Of a stretch of DNA of 64,000 nucleotides, positions 11,633-58,120 are shown one piece after another (within the stretch, counting starts at the first letter, position 1; every line of letters begins with the position of its first letter). The DNA is taken from contig OU744448.1 of NCBI GenBank assembly GCA_916610825.1, forward strand, positions 11,536,125 through 11,600,124. The letters run 5' to 3'. A program made the translations under genes and the position numbers. The notes under the pieces are model-generated. The model did not search any database. It was not told the DNA's origin and saw only the letters and a list, made by a program, of their open reading frames with translations. The DNA is from Haliclystus octoradiatus (Eukaryota; Cnidaria; Staurozoa; Stauromedusae; Haliclystidae).

Positions 11633-11850
11633 CTTAATTTGACGTCTATCGAGCTGGCCGCACCACTTTTTTCGATGTAGATCATTTTGGTCTTAAAAGT
11701 TTGATCACAGCCTGATCAAACTTGATCAGTATGTTATATTTTTTGATCAGCTTTGATCAGCGAGTTATAAGCGAATTCAAGATGTACGGCTGGCTCAACA
11801 TCGAAAATCCGAACGACATAAAATAATAAACCGAACTTGGAATCAAAAGT

Positions 11851-12384
11851 TTGATCACGCCTTGATCATTACTGATCAAAACTTTTTTTTCATAATTATA
11901 ATTATTGAGCGTGCAATCGGCAATTTAGCTTCTGGTGCGGCCAAATCAACACCAAAATTTCGAAAACGAGGTTATAATCATCCGAACTCTACGAATTTGG
12001 TATCAAAAGTTTGATCACGCCCTGATCAATACTGATCAAAACTTTTTTTTCCATAATTATAATTATTGAGCGTGCAATCGGCAATTTAGCTTCTGGTGCG
12101 GCCAAATCAACACCAAAATTTCGAAAACGAGGTTATAATCATCCGAACTCTACGAATTTGGTATCAAAAGTTTGATCACGCCCTGATCATTACTGATCAA
12201 AACTTTTTTTTCGTTAATTATAATTATTAAGCGTGCTCTCGGCAAGTTAGCTTCTGGTGTGGCCAAATCAACACCAAAATTTCGAAAACGATGGTTATAA
12301 TCATCCAAACTCTACGAATTTGGTATTAAAAGGTTTGATCACGCCCTGATCATTACTGATCAAAACTTTTTTTCGTTAATTATA
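11851..12384 (+). repeat. Left-arm tandem array (about 160-bp unit, four copies)
   Basis: Units begin TTGATCACGCC at 11851, 12011, 12172 and 12335. Each runs through TGATCATTACTGATCAAAAC, an AT-rich stretch, GCGGCCAAATCAACACC and TCGAAAACGAGGTTATAATC. Units differ by point changes and one- to two-base indels. Confidence 0.9.
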
Positions 12385-12504
12385 ATCATTGATAGTTTTA
12401 TGATGTTTCTGTGCTGGAAATTTTATCGTTCTACACTGCTACAGGTTCAAATTAGAATAAGCTTTGTATGATGTAATTGGTATTTCTATAACCAATCATT
12501 TTAA

Positions 12505-12690
12505 ATACACCATAGCGACATCTGGAGGCTACGCACTAATTGACCACTACTGAATATTAAAAATTTACAACATTAATTGACACTAACCAAGAATAATTTA
12601 CATCAAAAGAACCCCAAATTGTCCCAATAAGGATGTCGAGAGTGGATAAATAGAATAAGTAGAAACAAAACCGGTCTTCGAATCATATTG
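12505..12690 (-). repeat. Interspersed repeat family D, copy 1
   Basis: Reverse-complement homologue of 52262-52440. Shared blocks include GTAGCCTCCAGATGTCGCTA, TAAATTATTCTTGGTTAGTG and CTATTTATCCACTCTCGACA. One end of each copy carries GGAGGCTA or its inverse, so short terminal inverted repeats are possible. No ORF or pol III boxes are evident. This copy sits in the unique centre of the TGATCA fold-back element. Confidence 0.75.
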
Positions 12691-12984
12691 CCCAAATCAA
12701 CACATCAAACGTCAACACAACACAACGCGTCAACGATTGCCAGAACATCTATTCAAGAAATTTCAGGGACGTGCGTGGAGTGCCAACTTGGTGTTCAGAA
12801 AATCGCCCGTCAAAATTTTGCTTTTCCAAAAATAATACCTAGCATATTTTATTTAAGTCAAAATGTATACCCAAAATAATTTTTACTCCACCATGGTTTT
12901 GAAAATTGATTACAATTTTCGTGGGTTAAGTAATTAAGCTTAATAATTTTAATGAGCGAAAATGAGTTGTTGAACAGTAATGAT

Positions 12985-13985
12985 CAGGGCTTGATCAACT
13001 TTTGATACCAAATTCGTAGAGTTCGGATGATTATAACCTCGTTTTCGAAATTTTGGTGTTGATTTGGCCACACCAGAAGCCAAATTGCTGATAGCAAGCT
13101 TAATAATTATAATTAACGAAAAAAAGTTTGATCAGTAATGATCAGGGTGTGATCAAACTTTTGATACCAAATTCGTAGAGTTCGGATGATTATAACCTCG
13201 TTTTCGAAATTTTGGTGTTGATTTGGCCGCACCAGAAGCTAAATTGCCGATAGCAATCTTAATAATTATAATTAACGAAAAAAAAGTTTTGATCAGTAAT
13301 GATCAGGGCGTGATCAAACTTTTGATACCAAATTCGTAGAGTTCGGATGATTATAACCTCGTTTTCGAAATTTTGGTGTTGATTTGGCCGCACCAGAAGC
13401 TAAATTGCCGATAGCAAGCTTAATAATTATAATTAACGAAAAAAGGTTTGATCAGTAATGATCAGGGCGTAATCAAACTTTTGATACCAAATTCGTAGAT
13501 GTCGGAAGATTATAACCTCGTTTTCGAAATTTTGGTATTGATTTGGCCGCACCAGAAGCTAAATTGCCGATTGTACGCTCAATAATTATAATTATGGAAA
13601 AAAAAGTTTTGATCAGTAATGATCAGGGCGTGATCAAGCTTTTGATACCAAATTCGTAGAGTTAGGAAGATTATAACCTCGTTTTCGAAATTTTGGTGTT
13701 GATTTGGCCGCGCCAGAAGCTGAATTGCCGATAGCAAGCATAATAATTATAATTAACGAAAATAAAGTTTTAATCAGTAATGATCAGGGCGTGATCAAAC
13801 TTTTGATTCCAAATTCGTAGAGTTCGGATGATTATTACCTCGTTTTCGAAATTTTGGTGTTGATTTGGCCGCACCAGAAGCTAAATTGCCGATTGCACGT
13901 TTAATACTTATAATTAACGAAAAAAAAGTTTTGATCAGTAATAATCAGGGCGTGATCAAACTTTTGATACCAAATTCGGTTTATT
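12985..13985 (-). repeat. Right-arm tandem array (about 160-bp unit, seven copies)
   Basis: The inverse of the left-arm unit. The GATCAAAC junction recurs near 12992, 13151, 13312, 13472, 13632, 13793 and 13953, a period of 160-161 bp. Copy number differs from the left arm (seven against four), so arms expand or contract independently. Confidence 0.9.
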
Positions 13986-14237
13986 ACATTATGCCGTTCG
14001 GATTTTCGGTGTCGAGCCAGCCGTACATCTTGAATTCGCTTATAACTCGCTGATCAAAGCTGATCAAAAAATATAACATACTGATCAAGTTTGATCAGGC
14101 TGTGGTCAAACTTTCAAGACCAAAATGATCTACATCGAAGAAAGTGGTGCGGCCAGCTCGACAGAGGTCTTAATTTGCCCCATTCACACATTGGTTTTTG
14201 TTATCCTAATTTCACACATAGGTTGTTGTTGTCCTCA

Positions 14238-20164: not shown

Positions 20165-21342
20165 TCAGATGCTGTACATGCTTGTAACTGTTGCGAGGCA
20201 GACATCACTGAAATCTCCTGGAGGGAGATTCAGCCTAGCACGCTGAATTAGGAAATGGTTGAGGGTCAAAGGGGCCTGGTCGGCTGGGTCATTTCTGACG
20301 TATGTGAGAGGTAGAGAATTCAATAACCCCATCACTTCTGCGAGAAGAGTTCTTAGCTCGTCATCGCGCAAATATCTAAAACGTAGACTCCTCTCTTTCA
20401 TTACCCTATACAATGCCTTCTTTGAGCTCTTCACAAGAGCTTCGTGTACACCACCCCAATGAGGGGCACCAGGTGGTTGGAATTTCCATTTCACTCCCCT
20501 TTCGTTCAATTTCTTATCTAGGTCTTTATCTGAATGAAGCAAATCTACAACGGGTTTGAGGTCCTTCTCAGCACCAACAAAGTTAGTCCCGTTGAGGGAG
20601 TATAACAGTTCTGGTGAACCTCTAGTGTTTTTGAATCTCTCAAACGCATTCAAAAAGTCTGGACTGGACAGTGACTGAGCTAACTCGAGATGTACTGCCC
20701 TTGTTGTCATACAAGTAAAGATACAGCCGTATCTCTTAACCACCTTGTTACGCCCCTCCACTACTTCTAGAGGCCCAAAAAATAATCAACTGATGTGTTG
20801 AAGAAAGAAGGCTTTCCTACTGCCAAGCGCTCAGGTGGCAACTCAGACATTAGTTGAGTGGGAGGCTTGGTTCGCTCCTCTATGCACAATCTACATCGCC
20901 CTTTTGCTTTCTTCACAGCCTATCTTACACGAACAATCCAGTAGATTTGCCTTACATGTGACAAAACATACTCAATACCACTGTGTAAACACTGTTTATG
21001 ATGATAATCAATTATCAACTCTGTCAATTTATGTCGGGAAGGCAAAATGATAGGATGTCTCGCATCATAGGGAAGTGTGGTCTTTCCAATACGCCCACCA
21101 ACCCGCAAAAGTCCGTCCTTATCAACAAAAGGATGTAAAGATAAAAGAGAGGAAGATTTGTTTATCTGTTTTTCATTATTTAGTGCTAATAATTCCTTTT
21201 CATAAGTTTCACTTTGACATAATTTCAATTGTTCTTTCAGTTTATTTCCAATTATATTAGTGTTACTTAGTTCAATTTCATCTAATTTAACTTTGTTCCA
21301 ATCAACATTAATTTTAACAGTATTGCTATCACTTATATACAT
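20165..21342 (-). pseudogene. BEL-1 integrase (zinc-binding and DDE core), inactivated
   Basis: The zinc-binding part (21342-20920) shows RVGGRIGKTTLPYDARHPII and a DYHHKQCLHSG stretch. The core (about 20900-20165) shows YGCIFTCMTTRAVHLELA, NGTNFVGAEKDL and HWGGVHEALVKSSKKAL. The residue that should be the second catalytic aspartate, just before NGTNF, reads as Leu, so the DDE triad is broken. A one-base frameshift in the T-run near 20785 separates the start of the core from the rest. This is retroelement decay, not a host gene. Confidence 0.9.
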
Positions 21343-24300
21343 AATACTGTCTGTTTATATATCACAATATTTCGATATTTCTGTGTCTTTCCGCGACTTA
21401 TGTACGTCTTACTGGCGATATAATACGGATAATCCGTTGTCGGGAAATTATGCAAACATTTGTGTCGAGATAACCGTGTACAGTAACAAATTTGTTGTAT
21501 GAAAAGTATGGGTCTATGACGTTGTTTTAAAATAATATACTTCATCTGATATTTTATTTGATATCCTTGCATTAAAAAATTCAGAGATTTTGAAAAATTT
21601 CATAGGTCGATAATCTAGCGGGCAGCCAAATCGAATTCAAATTGAAATCCCCAGAACAAAAATATTTTGCTTTGAATTTAAAAGCTGCGTGTAAATTGTT
21701 TGAACAAGTGAAAATTAAAACTGAATCAGTTTTATGATAATTAAAACAATACGAAATACTGAGTTACATTGACTTACCAGTATAACTAGGCCAGACAAAA
21801 TATGTTTTGAAATCAAAGAAACGTAGACCTATTTCATGTAGTGTTGATATCAGCAATACATATAGCGCGGCACAAACGCTATGAAATTAAAGAGACTTTA
21901 GGTCTTAATTTAATTTATTAATGAAACAAAATGCCGTTTATTACTTTTCTCAAAATCGAGATACAAAACATTTCACTTTTAAAAAGGCTATTTAGATATA
22001 TAATTTGTGAGAACACTGAGCAAACAATCTGTTTTGAAATGAATAATCTATCGCGGGGCATAAAAACAAATTAACTCGCAAGAATTTTCAAAATGACGTT
22101 GGCGTTCGACTAATTCGAAAAAATATTCAAAGTTCGAAGAGATTATCTGTCTACAGTCTAAAATTACAGAGTTTAGAATCAATCAAGGCGCATTGCACAA
22201 AAGTATTTCTATAATTTATTATTTAATATAAAAATATGAATCATTTGGTTTTGAGCAGGCAGACTTTTATTTTCAGATTTTGTTTCCATAATTAACGAAG
22301 GAATTGTAAGCACCGATTAAAATTAAAATTTCATTTTGTTGACTTGCTATAAGAATAAGACACAGTATGTTACTACAGTTTCGAGAATAAAAATAGCGGT
22401 GTCTTGTTATTATCGTTGATCAACATTAAATAAAGTTAATTTCAGGTATATCAAATTCAATAAAGTTAAATTGAATTGAGCGTATGATTTGTGAAAAATA
22501 ATAATCATTATAATATTTTCAGCGTTCAAAAATTTTGCTTTGAAATTAAAAAGCACAAAAACATAATTCAAAAACATTTTTAAATAGTTAATACAGTTTG
22601 GATGAGTGTAACAAACCTTGCGTTACAAAAATAAAAAGCGAAAAGGTTGCATGAAATAATCGATCATAGCAAACAATATTTATTAAAATACAACTTACCA
22701 TTTTCCAAATGAGATCCAAATAAAAACTATACGAGCGGCATAATCTCCGAACAACATTTAAATACATAATAGTGGATTCTCTGAGTTAATACACCAATCA
22801 ATAATAAGTTAACAACCATATTTTATCGAAAGAGAATGTAAGCCCGATAAGAATAAAATATAAATTGTTTTTTATTCGAAATAATTCTGACAAAAATGAT
22901 CATTTCATATCGCGATCAAATGCAAGGTAAAGTAGATTCATTTTCTATATAAGTAAATCCTTTTCGTCAGACATCATAACATGAGCATTTAAATATTACC
23001 ATCGGCTGTGGTATTTTATATCTTTGAAGCTGCACTAAACATTTCCACTCTATAAACCATCGCGTCCGTTTCAATAAATTCTGAATAAATATGCATATCA
23101 CGAATCTGGCAAAATGAGTTGTTTTCGTTTACTATCAAAATAACTAATTTATTCATAATCGTCTTTTCTTTCATTCAACATCTGTAATGTATTATAAATA
23201 GCGCGTAGAAATATTGACAACAAGATGTAACATAATATCAATATCGAATTAGTATAGCGATTTATTATAGAATTTTATTTCCTTTTAAAAGAATGTTGAT
23301 GCTGTTATTCTGAAAAATTTGATAACAAGAAGCACTATGAGGCCAACTTTTCACATCTTTTTTTTACTTATAAAATTTTATTTTCAACGAACTCTTAGTA
23401 TTTTGATAGACTGCCATGAAAATCACAGGCCTGCTTGCTGAGATTGCAAAGATCAAAAATATATAGGCTCATATACTATCATATCATAATATTTTCAGAT
23501 TATATATATAATTTGGTTTTCAATACAAGCGCGTCGGTCGGCCTTGTTCAATAATACGTTGTCCAAGCAGTAGGTTTGTTGATCACGTCAGTTAAAGCGC
23601 CGATAACAGAAATTAAGGTAGTGGCCGATTGGTTATTGCTCTGGTATTACAATGTCAGGGTCGTCAGTTCAAATCCACCAATCGGCAAAATCTATCAACG
23701 ATTTTTCTGATTTTTTGTTTAATATGAAGCAATAAATCATTGTTAATTAACAAAAGATATCGTTTGACCATGTTAATAACAGAAATTAGTGGACCATGTG
23801 TCTTGTCGAAGCTAAATCAATTTAATATTGAATATATTGCATGCAATGCCACGAGTTTGACCGGCCACACCTTGACGGCGTTATTTTGTGAACACCACAA
23901 CATTAGTGCTGTATATATTGCAATAAAGATTGATGAATTCGAACCAAACGCGATCCGATCGTATCGGGTCAGATTCGGGTTAATATTTTAGGTCTTCGGA
24001 TCGGATCAGATTTGAAGGGATTTTTTATGGATAGTTTCAGATTTCGAAATTTGACTGAGTATTTGTAATTTATAATAATTAATGTGTTCTGGCTTCCTTT
24101 CAGCACATAAAATAAAGTTTTTCTATGTAGATATAGCTACGTTAAATTATGCAGTTCAATCGACTCAATTGAAGTGAAATAAATTAAAATTTTATTAAAG
24201 GAATGATTAAGATGTATTGATTAATGCTACATCGTTTCAATGCGTATTGTGTCTCATGTTCTCCTCCAGAGTTCATACTCCGTATTATACAGCGATAGTC

Positions 24301-24425
24301 AGCTTAGTCAATTGTTTAATTATAAGTGATCTGAAAGTTTTATCATATAAGGTCCATTATGGACCACACTCATTGCTAGTTAACTATAGCTGTATTTCTG
24401 ATTTCTTCGTCACAAATCGTAAAAG
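21343..24425. other. 3-kb unexplained sequence inside BEL-1
   Basis: BEL-1 pol is recognisable up to the RNase H tail (about 24430) and again from the integrase zinc region (21342). The stretch between is about 2.8-3 kb longer than expected for BEL elements. It is very AT-rich, has no ORF I recognise, and contains a tRNA-like segment at 23620-23692. No terminal inverted repeats or TSD were found by eye, so its identity and exact edges are unknown. Confidence 0.6.
23620..23692 (+). ncRNA. tRNA-like segment (probable SINE head, not a functional tRNA)
   Basis: Contains an A-box-like TGGCCGATTGGTTA and a B box AGTTCAAATCC with tRNA spacing. An anticodon-arm-like CTGGTATTACAATGTCAG lies between them. 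The acceptor ends do not pair as in a real tRNA, although GCCGATTGG and CCAATCGGC are perfect inverses. It is most likely the pol III promoter region of a tRNA-derived SINE. Confidence 0.35.
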
Positions 24426-24429
24426 ATCG

Positions 24430-25595
24430 GCCATTTACCAGGGTCCTCAAGAAGAAAACGTGGGCCAGCAAACCAAATGGTTGGCAAAACTCCAGAAGGC
24501 AAGACATTTGAACGTATCGCTAGGTCACTTACGTTGAGCCTGCCTGGCAGATGTCACCATTCTTCTGGTTCTGTCAACATCTGTATTTTCCCAATTCTGT
24601 TGGATACAAAAGGCTTATACTGAGACGCGGCACACCTTATCCAATTTCTGACACATGTACTGTCTGTCCAAAAGCATTTTTTCGTAGCTTTAGTAGACAA
24701 AGCGCCTTCTACATGAGAGCTGAGTCTAGATCCTAGCACAGCAGCTTGAAGTTCAAGTTTTGCTACGGAAATTGTCTTCTTGGGGGCTACTTTTGTTTTT
24801 GCCATTGCAAGTCTGCATGTTACAATACCATCGAAAGAAACACTTCTTACATAAACTGCAGCAGCAAATGCTTCCTCAGAAGCGTCACAGAAGGTATGTA
24901 AATCATAGTGATCCTCTACGATATCTGGTTTCAAACACCTCGGTACATGCATTTGTGACAGATCAACGAGATAGTTTTGGAAGGTATTCCAGTCGCTTCT
25001 GAATGTTTCAGGCAGTAGGTCATCCCAGCTGACACCTGCAATCGTCATGCGCTGCATAATGATTTTTCCCCTGATAACAATCGGTGACAAAAGTCCTAAG
25101 GGATCAAACAAGGAAGCTAGCTGACTAAGACATTTTCTTCTTGTCAGATGTTCAACCTTTCTAATTCAGTTCGATCGGTAAAGAATAATGTATCGCCTTC
25201 AGGGGACCACTTTAATCCCAACACTTTGCTCTCGCTGTCATTTTTGCCTAAATTAGATTCATTGTGCAAGTCTGCACATAGTGCTTTTCTAACTTCGTTG
25301 GAATTAGAAGTCCATTTTCTTAGGTTGAAGTCACCTTTCTTTAGAATATTTGCAATACCATTTGCTCTTTCAATTGCTAACTTAGCATTCATTACACTAT
25401 CACAATAGTCATCTACATCTTAGCCTTTTTTGATTGCCTTTGCTAGTTCTGGCTTTTCTGCAGCACTGTGGTCATCAGCTGTGCGATGAATAGCACTGAT
25501 TGCCAGACAGGGTGACGAGGCGTCACCGAATGCAAGTCTATCCATTTGATAAACCTTTACATCATCATTTGGATTGTCTCTCCATATGAATAATA
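24430..25595 (-). pseudogene. BEL-1 reverse transcriptase (second half) and RNase H
   Basis: After the LINE insertion the RT resumes with WRDNPNDDVKVYQMDRLAFG (about 25580-25510) and SSPCLAISAIHRTA. The catalytic box follows a TAA stop at 25420-25422 and reads DVDDY, so the conserved aromatic before VDD is lost while both Asp remain. RNase H shows DLHTFCDASEEAFAAAVYV, KLELQAAVLGSRL and FWTDSTCVRNWI, which carry the expected Asp, Glu and Asp. An FDPLGLLSPIVIRGK segment is the typical BEL connection region. A TGA after PEEW at 24554 interrupts the tail, and a further stop or frameshift lies near 25144. Confidence 0.92.
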
Positions 25596-28500
25596 ATAAT
25601 AATAATAATAATAATGAATTTATATAGCGCCATTTCTTAGAATAATCCAATGGCGCTTTACAATATAGTTAATTAGTATCGAGAAATTATAATAGAACCC
25701 CCATAATAGGTATGAAGGGTATATATCAGTTAGGTATATTATAACAATATAATATCTTGGTGAAATCTTAAATCTTAATTTATACAATCTTTGAACACTA
25801 GATTACTTTAATGAATAATTTTTTTTTTTTTACTGTTGACTATGCTTTGACTATTACTAAATGTAAATTATCAAATAACTAACTTAGCTTCATAACTTGT
25901 AAGCCTCCTTAAACAGGAAGGTTTCAATGTTCGTTTTAAACTCAGTGAGATGTACAACTACGGATGTCAATAGTTAAACTGTTCCATAACTCGGGGGCCA
26001 TGTAACAGAATGCCCGGTTTCCGTACGTTTTTAAATTGCATTTTGGCTGGACAAGGAGCTTCTTGTCTGCTGATCGTAACGCTCGAGTAGGCTTGTATAA
26101 ATGTAACAATTCCTGGATATAAGTTGGTGCCATATCATTCAATGCTTTGTAGGTTGTAATTAATATTTTAAATTTTATCCTTTGAGCGACAGGAAGCCAG
26201 TGGAGATCTACTAGAACAGGTGTTATGTGGTCGTATTTTTTAGTTCTAGTGAGCAGACGTGCAGCCGAAATTTGAACAGATTGTAATTTTTGTAATTGAT
26301 TTTTTGCAATGCCTGATAATATAGTGTTACAATGATCCAATCTAGATGTTACAAAGGCATGTATTAGAATTTCACAGTGTTTGAAGGATATATATTTCCT
26401 GATTTTAGCAATGTTACGAAGATGATAAAAAGACGATCTGCATATGCTACTTATCTGTTTATTCATGGACAATACATCATCAAACCACACTCCGATGTTT
26501 TTTGCTGAAGATGATGTTGACACAAGGTCTTGTCCTATGTTAATAGTAGTTAAAGACGAAGATGGCTTGTGTCGGGCATGAAATAATAAAAGTTCGCTCT
26601 TATTGCCATTCAGCATTAGTTTGTTATCAACCATCCATTTTTGTACATCATTTACACATGACTCAATGCGAATCTTTGAATAAATTGCTTCATTCCCTAA
26701 CTTAGGATTAAATGTTAAGTAAATCTGAGTATCATCAGCGTAAAAATGAAACGACATATCATGCGATTTAATTATATCAGCAAGTGGTGCAGTGTACATT
26801 GAATATAGTAACGGACCTAAAACTGAGCCTTGTGGAACGCCACAGTGAAGATTGTGTGATGAGGAGAACTTATTTTCGACTTTGACAAATTGCGTACGAC
26901 CAGATAAGTACGATTCAAGCCATTGCAGAGATTTTTTACGAATTCCGAAACGATGCTTCAGTCTGTAAAGTAAAATGTCATGATCAACAGTATCAAAAGC
27001 TGCTGATAAATCAAGTAGCAATAATAAAACACATTGATTATTATCAATGGCACAAAGAATGTCATTATGAATGCGAGTGAGAACAGTCTCAGTACTATGT
27101 CCGGTTTTATAGGCAGACTGGAAGATTTCATGTAGTTGCTCATCATCTAGGTGCTGTTTCAATCTCATATATACGACCTTCTCTGCTGCTTTTGAAATAA
27201 ATCTCAAATTAGAAATGGGACGAAAGTTCTTGTAAATTTCACTATCTAGTGAATTATTCTTTATTAATGGGTCTAAAACAGCTTCTTTGAAATTATCAGG
27301 AAGAGTTGACTGTTCAAAAGAGAGATTGATTATTTTTGCAATTATGGGCTGCAAAACAGGAAGACAATGTTTCATTAAAATTCCAGGCATTGGGTCTAAT
27401 ACAGACGATTTGGCACTCATACTAAGTAGAAGAGACGACAATTCTTCAGATGACGTTGGTGAAAAAGAATCAAGTGTATTATCAAAACGAGGCTGCTCAT
27501 TTGATATATATGAGGTACAAACTGTGGATGGAAAGTTATTACGTATGATGGTAATTTTATTTTCAAAATACTCAACAAACTGTTCTGCAAGGCTTGCTGC
27601 ATTCGTATACGACGGAAGCTTCTTTTCTGATTTTAAGTTCAACATTTTAGAAATAGTAGAAAATAACACACGTTGGTTGTTTTTATGTTCATCAATGATA
27701 TCAGTATAAAACGTAATTCTTGAATCATGGATTAAATTATTGACTTTTCTAGATTGCTGAACATACAATTCTTTGTCAATCATAAGTCTATTTTTCCGCC
27801 ATCTACGCTCTAATCGTCTACGTTTTGATTTTTCAACTCTTATATCGTTCGAGTACCACGGTGCTTTTAGTCTAATAGTTATAATACGTTGTTTAATGGG
27901 AGCATGGTGATCCAGTAAAGATTGTAAATTTTTATCATAGAGATCAGCAAGAGCAGATACATCATTGAAATGATCAAAATTCACGAGAGAGGAGGTATTA
28001 ATATCATGAACAAGTTGATCTTTGTCAATAGATTTTAATTTTCGGTATTTAATTTCCTTCCGTGTGTATGGTTGTTTGATGAAACACGAAGATTGAAACA
28101 TAACGGCAAAATGATCTGATATTAGTGGATCAAGGATGGTGATATTTTCCACTGCCTCAGAAGTTCTAGTGATAATCAGGTCTAAAATGTGTCCACTTTT
28201 GTGGGTAGATTCTTCAACATGTTGTTTTAAATTGAAGGTATCTAGAATACCTTAAAACCGCACAGTGTTGGTGTCGCAAGCACTATCAAGATGAAAATTA
28301 AAGTCACCAACGAGAATTAGCTGATAAGACAAAGTTGCAAGATTTTCTAAAAAGGAACTAAATTCTTGTAAAAATAGAGACACTGTAAAGTTGTTATTTT
28401 GAGATGGTGGTGGTCGGTAAATAACTATCAAATGCACGCTTTTTGAAGAGTGATTAATTAAATAATCAGCAAATTCGAAAGAGCGGTAAGATATACCAAG

Positions 28501-29605
28501 CAGGCATGTCTTCAGTTTCAGTTGTTTCTTATAAAGCAAAGCAATGCCACCACCTCTAGAACTTAAACGGGGTATATGATGCATAGAAAAACCAGATGGG
28601 CAAATATTGTTAATAGTTATTTCATCAGAGATAGTTCCATTCAACCATGTTTCTGTAATAGCTAAGACATCAATATCATTGTCCACAACAAAATCTTTTA
28701 TAATCAGTGATTTGTTGTTGACAGACCTAGCATTGAGAAGACATAACTGAACAGGAGGCTTGCATTAATTGTTTGTAGTAATACTCATAGGCGACCTTGA
28801 AATCGTAATCAAGTTCTTTGAATTGATTGTATTAAAAGGAAGATGATCTCTTGACTTTGACCGTTCAGTGGTTATAATGGGTATATTTTCATTGTGGCTA
28901 GAATCAGTACATTTGTTGTTTCCTGCACAGCTTCTTTCATATTTTAACAAATTCAAAATTTTGAATTTCTGCCCGCCACGCTTTCCTCTCTTTCTTCTAC
29001 TTTTTAAGCCTTTTAACGGGAATCGAGCAGACAAATTTTGATTCAAATTAGATGAACATTCAAAATCACGTAAACAAAGTAATTCATCACGATTGTATTG
29101 AATGATAGGCTTGTAATTGATGATATGCATTGATAATAAAACAATAGATATAGACGATATAAAATTTCAAATAAATTACGGCAGTTGGTAAATAATCTTG
29201 CAAACAGTATATCCAAATTAATTCAAGTTTAGATGTAATAATATAGAAATCCAATCTTAATATTCAAGTAATAACGAAGATAATAACTTCTTTGAAAATA
29301 TAACCACTAATCCAGATTAAAGAACATTTTTCGTAATAAAATTAGAATAATCTCCAGCCACCAAAAGCAATAACAATGAAAAATTTAATTTAAGAGTGAC
29401 AAACAACAAAATCATTCAGATTATGAACAACTATTGCAATGCAATAAAAGGAAAATCAACAAAACATTTATAAAATTGAAAATGTAATAATATTTTAAGC
29501 TGAAATAAAAGTAAAATGAAGCAATATAATGGTCTAAAAGCAATTGTCCCAGGAGCACGCAAAAGCATGTCCGTCGCCAACAAAGGCTTGTGATACTTGC
29601 TACTT
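25589..29605 (-). mobile_element. L2/CR1-clade LINE, nearly full length, inserted in BEL-1 RT
   Basis: On the minus strand it runs from about 29605 (just inside the BEL RT after SKYHR) to a microsatellite tail (ATT)n at about 25589-25617, directly abutting the resumed BEL reading frame. The 3' end has ATGGCGCTATATAAATTC before the ATT tail, like many invertebrate LINEs with microsatellite 3' ends. One long ORF codes for an APE endonuclease and an RT. The upstream 450 bp would be 5' UTR. An exact TSD was not established. Confidence 0.9.
25942..29130 (-). pseudogene. LINE ORF2: APE endonuclease plus L2-like reverse transcriptase, with two in-frame TAA stops
   Basis: One frame of about 1060 codons runs from 29130 to 25942, broken only by TAA at 28765-28767 and at 28252-28254. 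The N-terminus has the basic KSRRKRGKRGG, then LCLLNARSV. The APE endonuclease shows TETWL, RGGGIALLYK, VIYRPP, VGDFNFHLD and finally SDHFAV. The RT shows NFRPISNL, SAYKTGHSTETVL, LLLLLDLSAAFDTVDHDIL, GVPQGSVLGPLLYSMY and the catalytic FHFYADDTQIYL. A C-terminal HCNTILSGI...LHWLPV region is typical of L2-like elements. Target-primed reverse transcription in the nucleus is the known role. With both stops the protein could not be made intact. Confidence 0.95.
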
Positions 29606-32319
29606 GCTACTCTGTGATACTTGCTATCACTTGCACTCATTCTCACTCTGCTGAACATGGCCTCGATGTCACTGCTGACAGCAACCTCGTATTCTCTGAA
29701 TGCCAGAAGAACTTCTGTAAGATCGTTCTGTAAAGTAGGGCCTGTCATTAAGGCATCATTTAGAGATTTTCCTTTATATTTTTCTGCGGAGTCAAATACA
29801 ACTCTAAGTTTTCCTGTTCTGTCTCCTTGCTTGAAGACACCGTGATGCGGTAAATACCCTACTCCTATTTCTTCAACAGAATGGGTACCCTTTACAATGT
29901 GGGCATAGCCCTCATCTAGATACTTGTTTATAGCTGCTTTGTATTTATCAGCAAAAGACTGTTCACATCTGAATTTCTTCTCTAAAAGAAAGAATCTATG
30001 CATGCCTAGTTGGAGGTTGTTTTCTAGATTTGGTTCTCCATCCTTCCATGGGAGTGGCACTTCATACCCAATAGGTAGTTGCTTTGTTTTTGTCTTAACA
30101 AGGTCAATGACTTTCTGGTCTTCGAGACAATAAGCAACCTCTGTTTTGTATTCTGTTCCAAAGTTTTCTGTGGCCCAAAATTTCTTGAGCTGTTCATTTA
30201 GCTCATTAATTTGACAGCAATTAATTTTCAACCTTTTATCACTATCCCCAATTTTACCATGTACAACCCATCCAAACTCAGTTAAGGTCGCATATGGCTC
30301 TTCTCTCCCACCGATTAGGGTCTCGAGAGGCCTTAATAGATCTGCATGGTCTAAACCAAGGAGAATGTCAATCCCCCCTCCGGTTGCCTCTAATGGTAGG
30401 TCCTTCAGATGAACCCATTCTTTTTTAACAACTGGCCACTCAACTGATCTAACATTATCGCAAACCTTTGGAAGTGACCACGCTTCGATGACCTGATGAG
30501 TGTCACTGCCACGAGGGGTCTCAATTTTAAAAGAAATTCGGGAGGTCTGTTGAAAATTGGTTTGTCCGGTAACACCTGTGATCCTTAATTTGGTCACCTT
30601 TCCAGACAACCCAAGCTTCTTAGTTAAGGTTTCGGTAATTAATGTTGAGTCTCTACCTTCATCGATAAGTAGAGTGGCATCAATGGGCGTACCGTTGACG
30701 CCTATTACTTTAACCTTGATCACGCCTAGAGCGACACTACTAGTTGAGACTGTAGTATTCATTGCAGCAGATGTTGCTTCTCTGCTAGAATCATGTAACA
30801 GAGGATGATGATAGTAATTGCACGTTTCAAATGAACATCTTTTTCTACTGGGACAATTTCTCTGCATATGAGACCGTCCCGCCTTTTTTAGGCAGGAAAA
30901 ACACAACCCTTGTACCTTGGCAATTTCTAACCGATCCAAAACACTTTTTGATTTGAAAGAATTGCAGTCAGGTGTCGTATGAAGTCCGTTACAACTGCCG
31001 CAATTGTCGGCTTTCTCGTCAGAGATGCATGTAGAGGTGGAATGCGATTTCGCTTTAAGAGGGTTGGATTCGTTGTTTTCCTTGGGTATTTCCCACCGAC
31101 GGTACTGATGTGCCCGCTTTCTGAGCCAATCACTGAATAGGCTCAGGGTTTCCGTTGTGCATCTATCCGGGCAAACTTTCCGCCAAGCCATTTTTGAAAA
31201 TAGTGGGAGTTTGTTTTCTAGTTTTAAAAGAATAGATTTGCACAGTGTCTCACCTGTACCTAGCGCTCTAGAGAGAACCCGGAGGTAGCTTACTGCATGG
31301 TCCGAAAACTTACAAAATGAGGCAGGGTCATTTCTCTTTACCTGTTCTAGGTTGTCCAAGGTTCTTTCATGGGCCCTTTTGATGGCTTCAGGATTGCCGT
31401 ACCGGTCTCTGAGTAGCACTAAAGCATCTTTGTAGTCTGCTTCAGAACTACCTAGGCCTTTTATGACAATTTGGCATTCCTTACTGAGGCATTCATGCAG
31501 AAGAGACATTTTCTCCCCTATAGATTTATTAGTGTTGTGAACCAGGGCTAAAAAAAGTTCACTCCAAGAATACCAACTTAAAATATTTCCGTCAAAAAAT
31601 GGTGGTTTTATTTTCACCGAAGAGCGTTTATCATTATATTCAGCATTAAAGTCAATGCTAGAAATGACAAATTTATCAATCCAGTCATTGCTTTTCATGA
31701 CTATATTGGGTGCTGAAATATCTATTTTTGCCTGTGAATCGAAAAATCTTGCCAAGATTTCCCCTTGACTCATAACAGACCCCTCACGTTCGTTGCTTAT
31801 TCTTAGGGGTGTACTTGGCAACGGCGCTGATGCGTTGCCATGGGTAATTTGATTTTCAGCCTCACTTTGGTGTGGCAAGGGTTCTTGGTCTGCAACATTA
31901 GCTGACAAACCTGTGCCGTTAGACTGGGTTGGCAATTCTTGTCTGTGAGATATCACGGTTGATGCCTCATCTTATCTAATTTGTAAGTTATCCATGATCT
32001 TACCGCAAATTATTTGGACTTCTGCAAACATTTTTTGGAGCTGTGCCTCTTCCGTGTCGAATTCTTCCTCGGAAAGATATTCAGCTAATTGCTCGACAAT
32101 GTCGGCAATAATTTGTTGTCTAATTTCGATGTCATCGAAGGTTTTGCGTAAAAATGTTTTACTTCCGCTATTGATAATCTGATTTTCGGCAGAATTGATT
32201 AATTGGGTCAATCTACCCCTATGAGCTCTTCTCTTATTTCGAAGTGATTTTATACACTTGGAATTATCATTTGCGGTACCGTCTGTTGTGTTTAACGGAT
32301 AAACATCTTGATCTGCCAT
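29606..32319 (-). pseudogene. BEL-1 gag, protease and first half of RT
   Basis: The likely start is MADQDVYPL at 32319. A TAA at 31972-31974 lies in the same frame, and the reading then runs open to the LINE insertion. The gag part has a DUF1759-like region (about residues 115-265 of the second segment: IKPPFFDGNILSWYSW, RYGNPEAIKRAHERTLDNL). Two Cys-rich knuckles follow (CGSCNGLHTTPDC; CFSCLKKAGRSHMQRNC with CSFETCNYYHHPLLH). The protease motif reads LLIDEGRDSTLI; BEL proteases normally have D-S/T-G, so the middle residue is altered. The RT shows PHHGVFKQG, KLRVVFDSA and VSSDIEAMFSRVRM, then is cut at SKYHR. Confidence 0.92.
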
Positions 32320-36432: not shown

Positions 36433-37450
36433 TCTCATTTTTTTCTATTTTTTTAATTTAATTTATTATTTGGATATATTTTTCTTTATATTATTATATT
36501 ATTTCGATATTGTTATAATTTATTTCATTTTATTTGATTGAAATTGATTTTTTTATTTGCACTAGACCATACCAAGATACAATAGAAGACGTGATTTTCA
36601 CTAGTTATAATACAGGTGTGAGTTATAAATGACGTGCGAAATTGTCTCGTCTCTTCTTAAGGTGATGTCGCAGCAGAATTAAAGGGGCAAAATTGACCGG
36701 CGACCGCTGCGAGCTCAAGTTGAATTTAAGCTTAGCATAATTCAACCGTCTCGCTTTGAAACTTTTGTTATACGCAGGCCTAATTTGTTATAAATTCATG
36801 TCAACAATGAACATTGTGTTTTAAACAATAGACTAGCACGTGATCCTAAGTGCGTAGCGCCTGCCGGTCATTTTTGCTCCTTTAAAACATTTTAATAAAA
36901 CAAATAAAACCATGACGACTGGCTTAGCAGTTTGATGTAATAAATAACTTCAGAAAACAATACAAACAATAAATATATAATACTGTCTTGTCTAAGCCCC
37001 CAACCAAATGATGAATTGTCGGTTCAAAAGTTCTCATGGTCAAAACACAACAACAATTATTTTCGAAGTTTCACCTCAAATAGTGATGTTACAGAACGAT
37101 TAAAATCTTTCATTAACCATTTCAAAATGACGAGAAGAAGAAAACAATCATGTGTTCTACCAATGAAGAGATAATCACGATATAAACTAATCCAGGAGTA
37201 TTAGAAAACATTTCATTTAATAATGCAATTGTAATCTCGCTAAGCTGCGAGTCGGCCATCATGGCGGGCAATGGAAAAAATTTTTGTCAAAAAAATTTGG
37301 CTAAAAATTTGGAATAATCACACAGCATGCCCATTGTATTTTTAACAATAAAATGGTGTTTCATGCGCAATCGTTTTTTGTTCGACCTTTGTTAGCACGC
37401 AAAGCAGTATGTTGAACGTTATTTCAAAAGAACAATAGATTTAATCAAAA
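36433..37450. other. No gene seen
   Basis: AT-rich spacer inside the gag insertion pile. No supported ORF or repeat. Confidence 0.5.
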
Positions 37451-38320
37451 ATGAAATGAAATGAAATGAAATGAAATGAAATGAAATGAAATGAAATGAA
37501 ATGAAATGAAATGAAATGAAATGAAATGAAATGAAATGAAATGAAATGAAATGAAATGAAATGAAATGAAATGAAATGAAATGAAATGAAATGAAATGAA
37601 ATGAAATGAAATGAAATGAAATGAAATGAAATGAAATGAAATGAAATGAAATGAAATGAAATGAAATGAAATGAAATGAAATGAAATGAAATGAAATGAA
37701 ATGAAATGAAATGAAATGAAATGAAATGAAATGAAATGAAATGAAATGAAATGAAATGAAATGAAATGAAATGAAATGAAATGAAATGAAATGAAATGAA
37801 ATGAAATGAAATGAAATGAAATGAAATGAAATGAAATGAAATGAAATGAAATGAAATGAAATGAAATGAAATGAAATGAAATGAAATGAAATGAAATGAA
37901 ATGAAATGAAATGAAATGAAATGAAATGAAATGAAATGAAATGAAATGAAATGAAATGAAATGAAATGAAATGAAATGAAATGAAATGAAATGAAATGAA
38001 ATGAAATGAAATGAAATGAAATGAAATGAAATGAAATGAAATGAAATGAAATGAAATGAAATGAAATGAAATGAAATGAAATGAAATGAAATGAAATGAA
38101 ATGAAATGAAATGAAATGAAATGAAATGAAATGAAATGAAATGAAATGAAATGAAATGAAATGAAATGAAATGAAATGAAATGAAATGAAATGAAATGAA
38201 ATGAAATGAAATGAAATGAAATGAAATGAAATGAAATGAAATGAAATGAAATGAAATGAAATGAAATGAAATGAAATGAAATGAAATGAAATGAAATGAA
38301 ATGAAATGAAATGAAATGAA
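37451..38320. repeat. Uninterrupted (ATGAA)174 pentanucleotide satellite
   Basis: 870 bp of perfect ATGAA repeats with no visible interruption, bounded by AATCAAAA on the left and AACGTTTCC on the right. The reverse strand reads (TTTCA)n and is free of stops in all three frames because five is not a multiple of three. This gives two false ORFs of about 300 codons (FHFIS repeats). Confidence 0.98.
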
Positions 38321-38378
38321 AACGTTTCCATCATGACAGCATAGACTCAAGGTCACTTACGTAACCATGAGTCAAAAA

Positions 38379-55874: not shown

Positions 55875-56522
55875 ATGAATAAAAGATCATATGTCGACTT
55901 ATTTTTAATAATATTTTTATGTTTTGGTCGCTTCGTTGCAAGTGCTGAAGATTCTATTTCGGTTGATTTTGTGTCAGCGCATTTGAACATAACGATAAAA
56001 GACGGCTCTGGTTATCCACAATGGATGGAAATGACTGGCAAGTATGGCGCTGGAGCACTTGAAACAGAAGCTGCTGGCTATTTATACTACGAAAAAGACC
56101 AAGATTGGTGTGCTCATAATTTTACAAGGAAGGTATCAATTCGACCATGGATAGCTTTAATCCCTCGTGGCAATTGCTTCTTCACAGTAAAGATTTTGAA
56201 CGCTAAGCGCAGTAATGCTTCTGCAGTAATCATATTTAATAACGAAGCTGGTGAATTTAAAATGAAACAAAACGAACCCATGGTTGCTGTAAGCATTGGA
56301 CGAGGATACGGGGAAGAACTTGTAAATACTGTTGGTAATCGTTCTGTATATGTTCGTATTAGCCCAGGACCACGGCACGAATCGCCAGGAGACTGGCCAA
56401 GTCGCACTTCAGTTTTATTCGTTTTGGTATCATTTATTTTATTAATGTGCATCTCATTGGCATGGCTTGTGTTTTACTACGTACAAAGGTTTCGTTACTT
56501 TTATGCCAGAGATCGAAAAGAG
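55875..56522 (+). CDS. First coding exon of a Goliath/RNF150-type PA-TM-RING E3 ubiquitin ligase (partial gene)
   Basis: The 216 codons encode a signal peptide (about 1-24, LFLIIFLCFGRFVASA), a lumenal/extracellular protease-associated (PA) domain (about 60-165, with WIALIPRGNCFFTVKI and NASAVIIFNN), and one transmembrane helix (about 178-203). After the helix comes the very conserved WLVFYYVQRFRY...ARDR of RNF130/RNF150/Goliath proteins. Sequons at N38, N82, N114 and N155 fit a glycosylated lumen-facing region. The RING-H2 that recruits E2 enzymes should be on later exons, which are not found in this window. Family members sit in endosomal or plasma membranes and ubiquitinate membrane cargo. 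The start has A at -3 (CACAATG) and is the first ATG before the signal peptide. The exon ends in phase 0 at GAG|GTGAGT. RNF128 or RNF13-like genes are alternatives, but the TM-proximal sequence is closest to RNF150/RNF130. Confidence 0.9.
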
Positions 56523-56528
56523 GTGAGT
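56521..56528 (+). other. 5' splice site of the RNF150-like exon
   Basis: GAG|GTGAGT matches the consensus donor. The frame continues as an ORF to 56570, but protein similarity ends exactly at the GT, supporting splicing here. Confidence 0.85.
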
Positions 56529-58120
56529 CTAGGATATTGTTTATTGCAAAACAATTTGTTTGGCCAATAATGATTTGAACAGGCCTAGCACGATATCTTA
56601 TCACTTTAATCTTAGTTTATAAATTATTATGTTGCTATGCCTTCAATACATAGTACCTTTTTCATATTAATTCAATGAGGTTTTTCATGTTGACATGCCG
56701 TGGGACTTTGTTGTCTGTGTCCGTTGGTATTTAGTTGATCAGGCTATATCCTGCATTGTGAAATGTGAACACATGTATCCCAGGCTGTCTTCTATTTTTC
56801 TCCCTGATCAAATCTAAACTTTGTGCTATTGTGACGAACTTTTAACATTACAACATTTATGAAAACTGTATTGCCGTTGATTTTCTCTGCCCTTGAGATA
56901 GTTCCTAAATGCTTAGGCGTTTGATATCCAGCCTTCACTTTTCCTCAATTTCTTTTGTAAACAAAGGCGTATGCGGTATTGAATTGCTTTTACAAAAGTC
57001 AATCGTTTTCATGCTTGCTTTTACTGTTCTCCCTCGGGTGATCAGCATATTATCTGTTGTTTAAAAATCGTCATTACATTGTTTATTGAATTAATTCGAA
57101 CCCCCTCGTGTTGTGTTTTATTGGTAGAACATTTCAACGCATGTGAAAACACGATGACCGGTGCTTCAAATGCTTATAAATCGATTGTCTGAAATTGATA
57201 TTTTTACTTGTACAATGAAACACGATTTCAAATGTATATCCATTCTGTTTACTTATAGCCTCAGGATTAACTAAATGGTCTATTATTTTTTCATATGAGT
57301 CGTATTTTTATATTTCTCATATTTTCTTTTTTTCATTGATAATATTCTCTAATAATGTAACATCTGACATATTATAATATTTTTGAGCTTCTTTACAGCT
57401 TCTTTGTGGCCACTGCCTTATTACTTATCAGATAGTTTCGCTTAGTGCGTTGTTGTTGATGAATTTAATTCTGTCTACACGATGACCTTTCTGTTGCCAA
57501 GTTACATTCTGCCCACCTTGTTACAGTATCTGTTTTTCAGTTTTGTTCAATGTCATTCAAATCCCCCTTTCTTCTCAGGAATTCCCCTCTAACACAGAAA
57601 AGTAAACGTATGTAATATGATTCTTACTGTTTCAAATTGTTTACTCAATTTGCAGTAACTTGTGACGGAACAAATTTTTACATTACTTGTTTTCCGGAAA
57701 TTCCTACACGTTTGTTTTGGCGACAATATTATATATAGGACAATGGAAATCACAGATATGTTAGTCCCATGAAACAATCCTACTGGCATTTTGCCATAGG
57801 ACACTGAAAAATTCATGATAGTGATAAGGATGTATGTATCATTCTCAGATGCCTCATTCAGTGTCTGCCAAAGGATTTGGCCTTCCTGAGTTTTTGAAAC
57901 ATTTTCAAGATTTTCTTCTAAAATTGTTATTGAATTTTAACCTATAAATCAGAAAATTACCCATTTTCTTCTGAATTTTTTTTTAACCTTCCTGGATCTA
58001 GGATCCCACAATCTCCCCTTTTGTTGGCCCCTGACCACCTCAGCATATAGCCCCTGACCACCTCAGCGTATTGGCCATTCTATACCACCTCAGCATATAA
58101 TTAAAATCTAACTTTCTTAT
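56529..58120 (+). other. Presumed intron 1, first part
   Basis: No further exon of the ligase (expected to begin with a basic RRLGDAAKKA-like stretch and then the RING) was found. Sequence is T-rich in the sense strand. A small tandem repeat lies at 58022-58104. Confidence 0.6.
58022..58104 (+). repeat. Short tandem repeat of ACCACCTCAGC(A/G)TAT
   Basis: GGCCCCTGACCACCTCAGCA is repeated as AGCCCCTGACCACCTCAGCG and then as a diverged third unit, with a period of about 28 bp. Confidence 0.75.

Follow-up and report, generated by a model that had tools for sequence, protein, structure and literature searches.

Helically phased TGATCA sites in the satellite-like arms of a foldback element, most likely Rehavkus-like, from Haliclystus octoradiatus

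The Rehavkus group of transposons is described as close to, and an outgroup of, the Mutator-like elements (MULEs), with very few members identified so far; the traits given for it are a 9-bp target-site duplication, a transposase with a PHD finger, a minisatellite preceding the 3' end and, as tabulated, inverted repeats of 26-400 bp (PMC6446971). For one member, Rehavkus-1_TC of Tribolium castaneum, a length of 9.5 kb and 164-bp units in the inverted termini are reported (PMC10218199), and neither "palindrom" nor TGATCA was found in the main text of that paper. Muta1 and Tm1 are MULE foldback elements, described as having 8-10 bp duplications, composite termini built of repeats, and both coding and non-coding copies (PMC5225508, PMC3169594). 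In Galileo, the termini are reported to contain several binding sites for the transposase domain, of which the outermost was placed by footprinting (PMC3688188). Here we analyse a foldback element with TGATCA-rich arms, predicted from sequence in a window of 64,000 nucleotides from the genome of H. octoradiatus. It is probable, in our judgement, that this element is a non-autonomous member of a Rehavkus-like family, here called family A, and that the phased TGATCA sites in its caps and arms form a candidate docking array for the transposase.

The element spans 11642-14168 of the window (2527 bp), exactly within the boundaries and between the perfect 9-bp duplications that had been predicted (Table 1). 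Its mirrored end caps, also foreseen, measure 189 bp each and are 95% alike, and the left cap has at least 40 matches in the genome at 94-100% identity. The opposed orientation of the tandem units in the two arms was confirmed as well, the six longest inverted pairs being 92-96% complementary. The arrays of units of about 160 bp stand with corrected figures (Table 1); the earlier counts of four on the left and seven on the right arose because the inner partial units had been counted. The expected three or so TGATCA per unit is right for the left arm, but several right-arm units have two each. Its inverted termini are long, unequal in length and made up of tandem repeats, which places the element in the foldback structural type, and all its open frames are shorter than 90 codons. 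It is a short, gene-less, non-autonomous cut-and-paste element, and this part of the original prediction, satellite-like arms included, is upheld by the 9-bp duplications and by the protein-coding relatives in the genome.

Table 1. Parts of the foldback element and its target-site duplications, in window coordinates
Feature	Position	Strand	Remarks
Left target-site duplication CTTAATTTG	11633..11641	.	Exact 9-bp match to 14169-14177, none longer
Left end cap, ACGTCTATCGAGC type	11642..11830	+	Five TGATCA at cap offsets 60, 71, 81, 102, 112
Left arm	11831..12392	+	3.5 tandem 161-bp units; TGATCA triplet per unit, spacing 11 and 10 bp
Middle, 545 bp	12393..12937	.	End pieces of 269 bp and 112 bp resemble inner flanks of large copies
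Right arm	12938..13979	-	6.5 tandem 161-bp units, orientation opposite to left arm
Right end cap, ACCTCTGTCGAGC type	13980..14168	-	Four TGATCA at cap offsets 71, 81, 102, 112; first site lost
Right target-site duplication CTTAATTTG	14169..14177	.	Exact 9-bp copy of 11633-11641

TGATCA occurs 38 times in the 2527-bp element; the window outside it, 61,473 bp in all, has 18 copies, a rate at which 0.74 copies would be expected inside the element. First-order Markov simulation gave a mean of 1.05 and a maximum of 4 in 200 runs. All 38 sites are in the outer parts: arm and cap together have 17 on the left and 21 on the right, and the middle has none. Elsewhere in the window, minus-strand retrotransposon frames that look BEL/Pao-like by eye were noted at 20165-25111 and 29431-31956, about 900 bp of a short repeat with long frames of the FHFISFHF type at 37441-38356 is a microsatellite and no gene, and a 231-aa frame at 55875-56570 resembles, by eye, a protease-associated-domain membrane protein of the RNF13 kind.

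To place the element among its relatives, the genome (262 Mb in 33 contigs) was scanned, counts of repeat matches being lower bounds, and 17 family-A loci were fetched as 20 stretches, three of the loci in two pieces each. Fifteen of these loci and the window element make up a set of 16 complete elements of 1069 to 10,581 bp; two loci were omitted for want of a second cap, one having two caps in the same orientation and one flank and the other a single cap. Capped pairs beyond the 16 elements also occur among the listed cap and terminus matches. The search with the end cap and the inspection of the flanking 9-mers yielded exact 9-bp duplications in 13 of the 16 elements. All 13 are different and no clear consensus was found among them, and in each the longest exact flank match is 9 bp. 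One further element has a duplication matching at 8 of 9 bases and two have none, while none of 240 cross-paired flanks, used as a control, matched. A family-A element without a duplication, at C7:26540400-26544350, holds a 696-aa frame; by eye, the start of this frame is almost the same as part of a LINE-type frame at window positions 25942-28152.

Three copies of 2102 bp are 1-2 substitutions apart and have three different duplications and targets. Similarly, two copies of 9462 bp (9 differences) and a pair of 9741 and 9748 bp (10 differences) lie in different targets. Since near-identical copies sit in different targets, these are recent jumps. The unequal unit numbers are identical within the triplet and within each of the two pairs, despite the different sites and duplications, indicating that the unequal arms travel with the element. 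Comparison of unit counts per arm thus found them unequal and inherited, and the earlier proposal that the arms expanded after insertion was not borne out; post-insertion growth as a necessity was rejected on the same ground. Mean distances between units are 4.6% within an arm, 5.1% between the arms of one element and 5.8-5.9% between elements, suggesting weak structure among arms; as the three means differ little, homogenisation arm by arm was rejected. Two elements, C2:6982226-6986492 (4267 bp) and C6:4960536-4961604 (1069 bp), have the ACGTCTATCGAGC terminus at both ends. Since the latter, with one arm nearly gone, keeps an exact 9-bp duplication, different end types are unnecessary, and a pair of like ends seems to be capable of movement.

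In five copies, 9462-10,581 bp long, family-A caps and 161-bp units are combined with a transposase-like coding region, which is open over 1057 codons in one of them and divided between frames in the other four; in an 8.3-kb copy it is in more, shorter pieces. The two end pieces of the middle of the window element align at 87-90% identity with the inner flanks of six copies measuring 8.3-10.6 kb, and the middle as a whole matches three other copies at 90-94%. Because this middle matches the inner flanks of the large copies, the window element is, judging from its sequence, an internally deleted derivative of a larger element in the same genome.

The 1056-residue translation of the family-A coding region has a single Pfam match above cut-off, a Znf_SCAND3 finger (28.3 vs 27 bits, and 31.1 bits in a cut-out piece). 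The finger follows the pattern CX2C-X13-CX2C-X4-H-X4-C-X18-CX2C at residues 623-675, with a Cys/His spacing close to that of a PHD finger. No PHD model was listed in the Pfam scans of this protein, and the match to a solved finger of a bromodomain protein (chain 2l43) is weak (E 0.29). An 8.6-kb element of a sister family, B, encodes a relative of this protein, with 37% identity both in the core (280 residues) and in the N-terminal part (212 residues), and 57% in the 49 residues that surround the last acidic site; the N-terminal piece and the core are on opposite strands, and this coding copy is therefore rearranged. A candidate triad, D250, D320 and E549 or E551, lies in stretches common to the two proteins. 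No Pfam transposase model reached its cut-off in scans of the whole family-A protein (E up to 1), four pieces of it and three pieces of the family-B protein (E up to 10), the last of which had a weak integrase-core match below cut-off (15 vs 32.6 bits). AlphaFold models of the family-A protein were poor (pLDDT 33 from the single sequence and 41 from a two-row alignment). With Pfam transposase models below cut-off and poor predicted structures, we only infer that this transposase-like protein would act as a DDE enzyme. Searches of NCBIfam and PHROGs gave nothing meaningful, and viral contigs searched with patterns from the family-A protein contained no matching stretch. Cys-box-like and His-box-like strings at residues 759 and 1013 look ubiquitin-protease-like by eye; as neither Pfam nor the solved structures gave a relevant match, such a tail is not claimed.

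The TGATCA sites are helically phased. In the 16 family-A elements, distances below 60 bp between neighbouring sites are 10 bp (201), 11 bp (209) or 21 bp (40), with 4 others. The period that best fits the sites is 10.5 bp for the window element; for families B, C and D, each represented by a single element, it is 10.3-10.4 bp, that of D being computed on G[AC]TCA in one arm. In each case none of 20,000 random spacing sets reached the observed score, the sites of tandem units being non-independent. Sites at exactly 60, 71, 81, 102 and 112 are present in 27 of the 32 family-A caps. The pattern TGATCAN5TGATCAN4TGATCA has 530 matches genome-wide (296 and 234 by strand) and its reversal none, and a TGATCA triplet at the off-phase spacing of 14 bp was found at one genomic place. 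By eye, a small number of spacer types (A, B, C) account for many of the first 100 of the 530 matches, and other types are seen in some. Among 127 family-A units, a set that leaves out four near-identical copies, non-consensus bases make up 1.7% in the TGATCA columns vs 3.8%, and the 27-bp triplet block ranks 25th of 135 windows in conservation, suggesting that selection within family A is weak or too recent to see. Among open-licence papers, none was found on TGATCA in terminal inverted repeats of transposons, and none, in the text accessible, on helical phasing, palindromes and transposase sites in these elements; the helical phasing of arm and cap sites seems to be the new part of the finding.

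Between families, the sites are kept while their surroundings change. Over the first 130 columns of an ungapped alignment of cap A with cap B, TGATCA bases are identical at 30 of 30 positions and the others at 45 of 100, the B and C elements compared having been chosen via the TGATCA pattern, by which three sites are forced and in B only sites 4-5 are free. By eye, the two flanks agree at 8 of 9 bases in the family-B element and over 11 bases in the family-C element. In family C, the site spacings include other multiples (20, 30 and 41 bp). A search with the outer terminus only gave 124 matches, and the reversed pattern none; from the first 100 of these, 20 ends were chosen by hand, non-randomly, 14 of D type and 6 of B type. 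Among the latter, one end has five TGATCA with one 25-bp off-phase step, one has AGATCA and four TGATCA at the standard positions, and one is rearranged with a single site within the first 135 bp. The other three have no sites and one 15-bp outer flank in common (C1, C1 and C4), and these array-less termini are therefore probably inside a larger repeat and not independent insertions.

Family D has a different motif. WG[AC]TCA stands at exactly 60, 71, 81 and 102 in 9 of the 14 D-type ends, among which three pairs are the two ends of one locus, counted separately; of the other five, one is displaced by 10 bp with the same spacing, one has three sites, one has two, and two have none. The first position reads AGATCA, no site is present at the fifth position (112), and a TGATCA array was found in none of the 14 ends. 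A GCTCA triplet at 11/10 spacing has 17 matches genome-wide, and its reversed control 0. Two of the three D pairs read have exact 9-bp duplications and the third has inverted flanks, and a D element read through carries three diverged cassettes per arm and no satellite. Thus, the positions of the sites are fixed while the letters between them change, and in family D the site letters differ together. A D-type pair with inverted flanks at C4:24261012-24270687 contains, by eye, a Gypsy-type retrotransposon. A candidate coding element of family D was rejected, since by eye it holds a nested retrotransposon of the Gypsy type, and no transposase of family D was seen; in another locus, the long repeat frames are microsatellite.

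What kind of element this is and what its array does can each be explained otherwise. The arms by themselves resemble satellite DNA and could be an array that chanced to flank an insertion, with no part in a transposon. We find this hardly credible. The search with the 161-bp unit gave 257 matches, partly listed (40 of 86 candidates scored), and among those listed no standalone satellite was seen, the units lying, by eye against the termini, inside or beside capped elements. The two clusters farther from a listed terminus, at 2.5 kb (C5:26.26 Mb) and 8.8 kb (C4:9.36 Mb), are within element length. Moreover, the exact 9-bp duplications are located at the caps, and copies so capped argue against a chance array; among the matches listed, the predicted transposon origin thus prevails over a mainly standalone satellite. 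A foldback element of the canonical MULE kind (Phantom, Muta1-like) is a different matter. Duplications of 8-10 bp with inverted termini are a MULE trait found here, long repeat-built inverted termini are also reported for Muta1 and Tm1, and the D1-D2 spacing of 70 is near the 69 given for Muta1 (D214, D283). However, Pfam scans of the family-A protein, whole or in pieces, and of the family-B pieces gave no match to MULE transposase, FLYWCH or SWIM models, the D2-E distance is about 230 vs 136 in Muta1 (D283, E419), and the finger spacing is near PHD, making a canonical MULE an unlikely identity. Family A has the 9-bp duplication of Rehavkus (13 of 16 exact), and in five copies a coding element of about 9.5 kb with units of about 160 bp in its inverted termini, which fits the description of Rehavkus-1_TC. 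By comparison with published descriptions, the family is most likely Rehavkus-like. From the original prediction of a Mutator-like identity, the 9-bp duplications and long inverted termini are retained, while canonical MULE models do not match and the Rehavkus group is the best named match. Likewise, the expected full-length relative carrying a MULE transposase has its counterpart in five coding copies, but not in a MULE model match.

As to the array, it may bind a host architectural or regulatory protein that the element exploits, instead of the transposase. Phased sites are frequent for architectural or cooperative DNA-binding proteins, and TGATCA is common to families A, B and C. Indirect evidence against such a host protein comes from family D, which shares the genome but has WG[AC]TCA at four of these phased positions; a motif that changes throughout a family is not what a host protein with a fixed preference would lead one to expect. 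Since families A and B keep the phased sites, and D has a related motif in their place, a family-specific protein, the transposase, is favoured over a general host factor, and fixed positions with changing letters are to be expected if such a protein docks once per turn. We therefore hold a host protein to be improbable as the chief ligand, if deserving of serious attention. A clearly poorer candidate is the absence of any binding role, with TGATCA a by-product of unit formation and spread and the likeness between families plain descent. Homogenisation can spread units and any sequence carried along, and within family A the triplet is conserved just mildly better than its neighbours. This reading is nevertheless at odds with the complete retention of TGATCA bases between caps A and B when fewer than half of the others were kept, with the recurrence of the helical spacing at other multiples in family C, with the best period of 10.3-10.5 bp in four elements, one from each of families A to D, and with the single place at which the 14-bp-spaced triplet occurs.

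Together, our data support the TGATCA array as a putative docking array for the transposase. Under this docking model, the family-A copies of 9.5-10.6 kb would supply, or would recently have supplied, the transposase in trans. The enzyme may read the outer terminus (about 18-20 bp) together with the array in the cap and the 161-bp units, where docking sites at intervals of roughly one helical turn (10, 11 or 21 bp) would place the bound protein on one face of the DNA. It would then cut at the cap ends and insert with a 9-bp stagger. Through replication slippage or unequal exchange, units in the arms might be gained or lost, and a jumping element would take its unit number with it. The model thus presumes that these ends have the family-A protein as their transposase, that TGATCA is what this protein binds and that transposition gains from additional sites. 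Furthermore, the 33-bp stretch common to cap and unit, as in Tetris, suggests that the satellite may have grown from a copied candidate docking cassette.

A wider reading, which we offer tentatively and hold somewhat more doubtful than not, is that foldback satellite arms are helically phased loading platforms for transposases, in which recognition switches in concert while the phase stays fixed, so that transposase and array co-evolve and rival families avoid cross-mobilisation. If it were true, the motif switch would be the one between TGATCA in families A, B and C and the WG[A/C]TCA that, in family D, fills four of the five positions in the cap. A single genome that contains coding copies, non-coding copies that moved recently, and sister families having two versions of the motif at the same phased positions makes the docking model directly testable, and a natural specificity switch is on offer. 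It also touches on why some transposons build satellite-like arms, a question to which Galileo has contributed several binding sites (PMC3688188) and Tetris a satellite without a coding copy (PMC4079207), as those papers describe them.

Among the described systems, Galileo resembles the present element in its long repeat-built inverted termini. It belongs to another superfamily, P, with a THAP domain, and its abstract makes no mention of helical phasing (PMC3688188). Docking at multiple sites in satellite arms, for which Galileo may serve as an analogy, is a matter separate from the family assignment. Tetris, a foldback element of Drosophila virilis, is likewise reported to have long multi-domain inverted repeats, with units of about 220 bp, duplications of 8-10 bp and a 37-bp stretch common to outer domain and unit, against 33 bp here; as described, it differs in that no coding copy was found and in that its units also form kb-size satellite arrays, of which there are none among the unit matches listed here (PMC4079207). 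Muta1 and Tm1 are similar in their 8-10 bp duplications, composite termini, and coding and non-coding copies, whereas their repeats are given as 12-15 bp and their transposases as MULE enzymes with FLYWCH-type fingers, of 504 aa in Muta1 (PMC5225508, PMC3169594). Compared with the Rehavkus group as published, both arms are here built of repeats and reach about 2.2 kb, and in place of the PHD finger there is a PHD-like one with H-x4-C, named Znf_SCAND3 in Pfam (PMC6446971). The closest likeness by description is to Rehavkus-1_TC (PMC10218199), to which correspond coding copies of 9.46-10.6 kb, 161-bp units and unequal arms, and a well-anatomised case is thereby added to the Rehavkus group.
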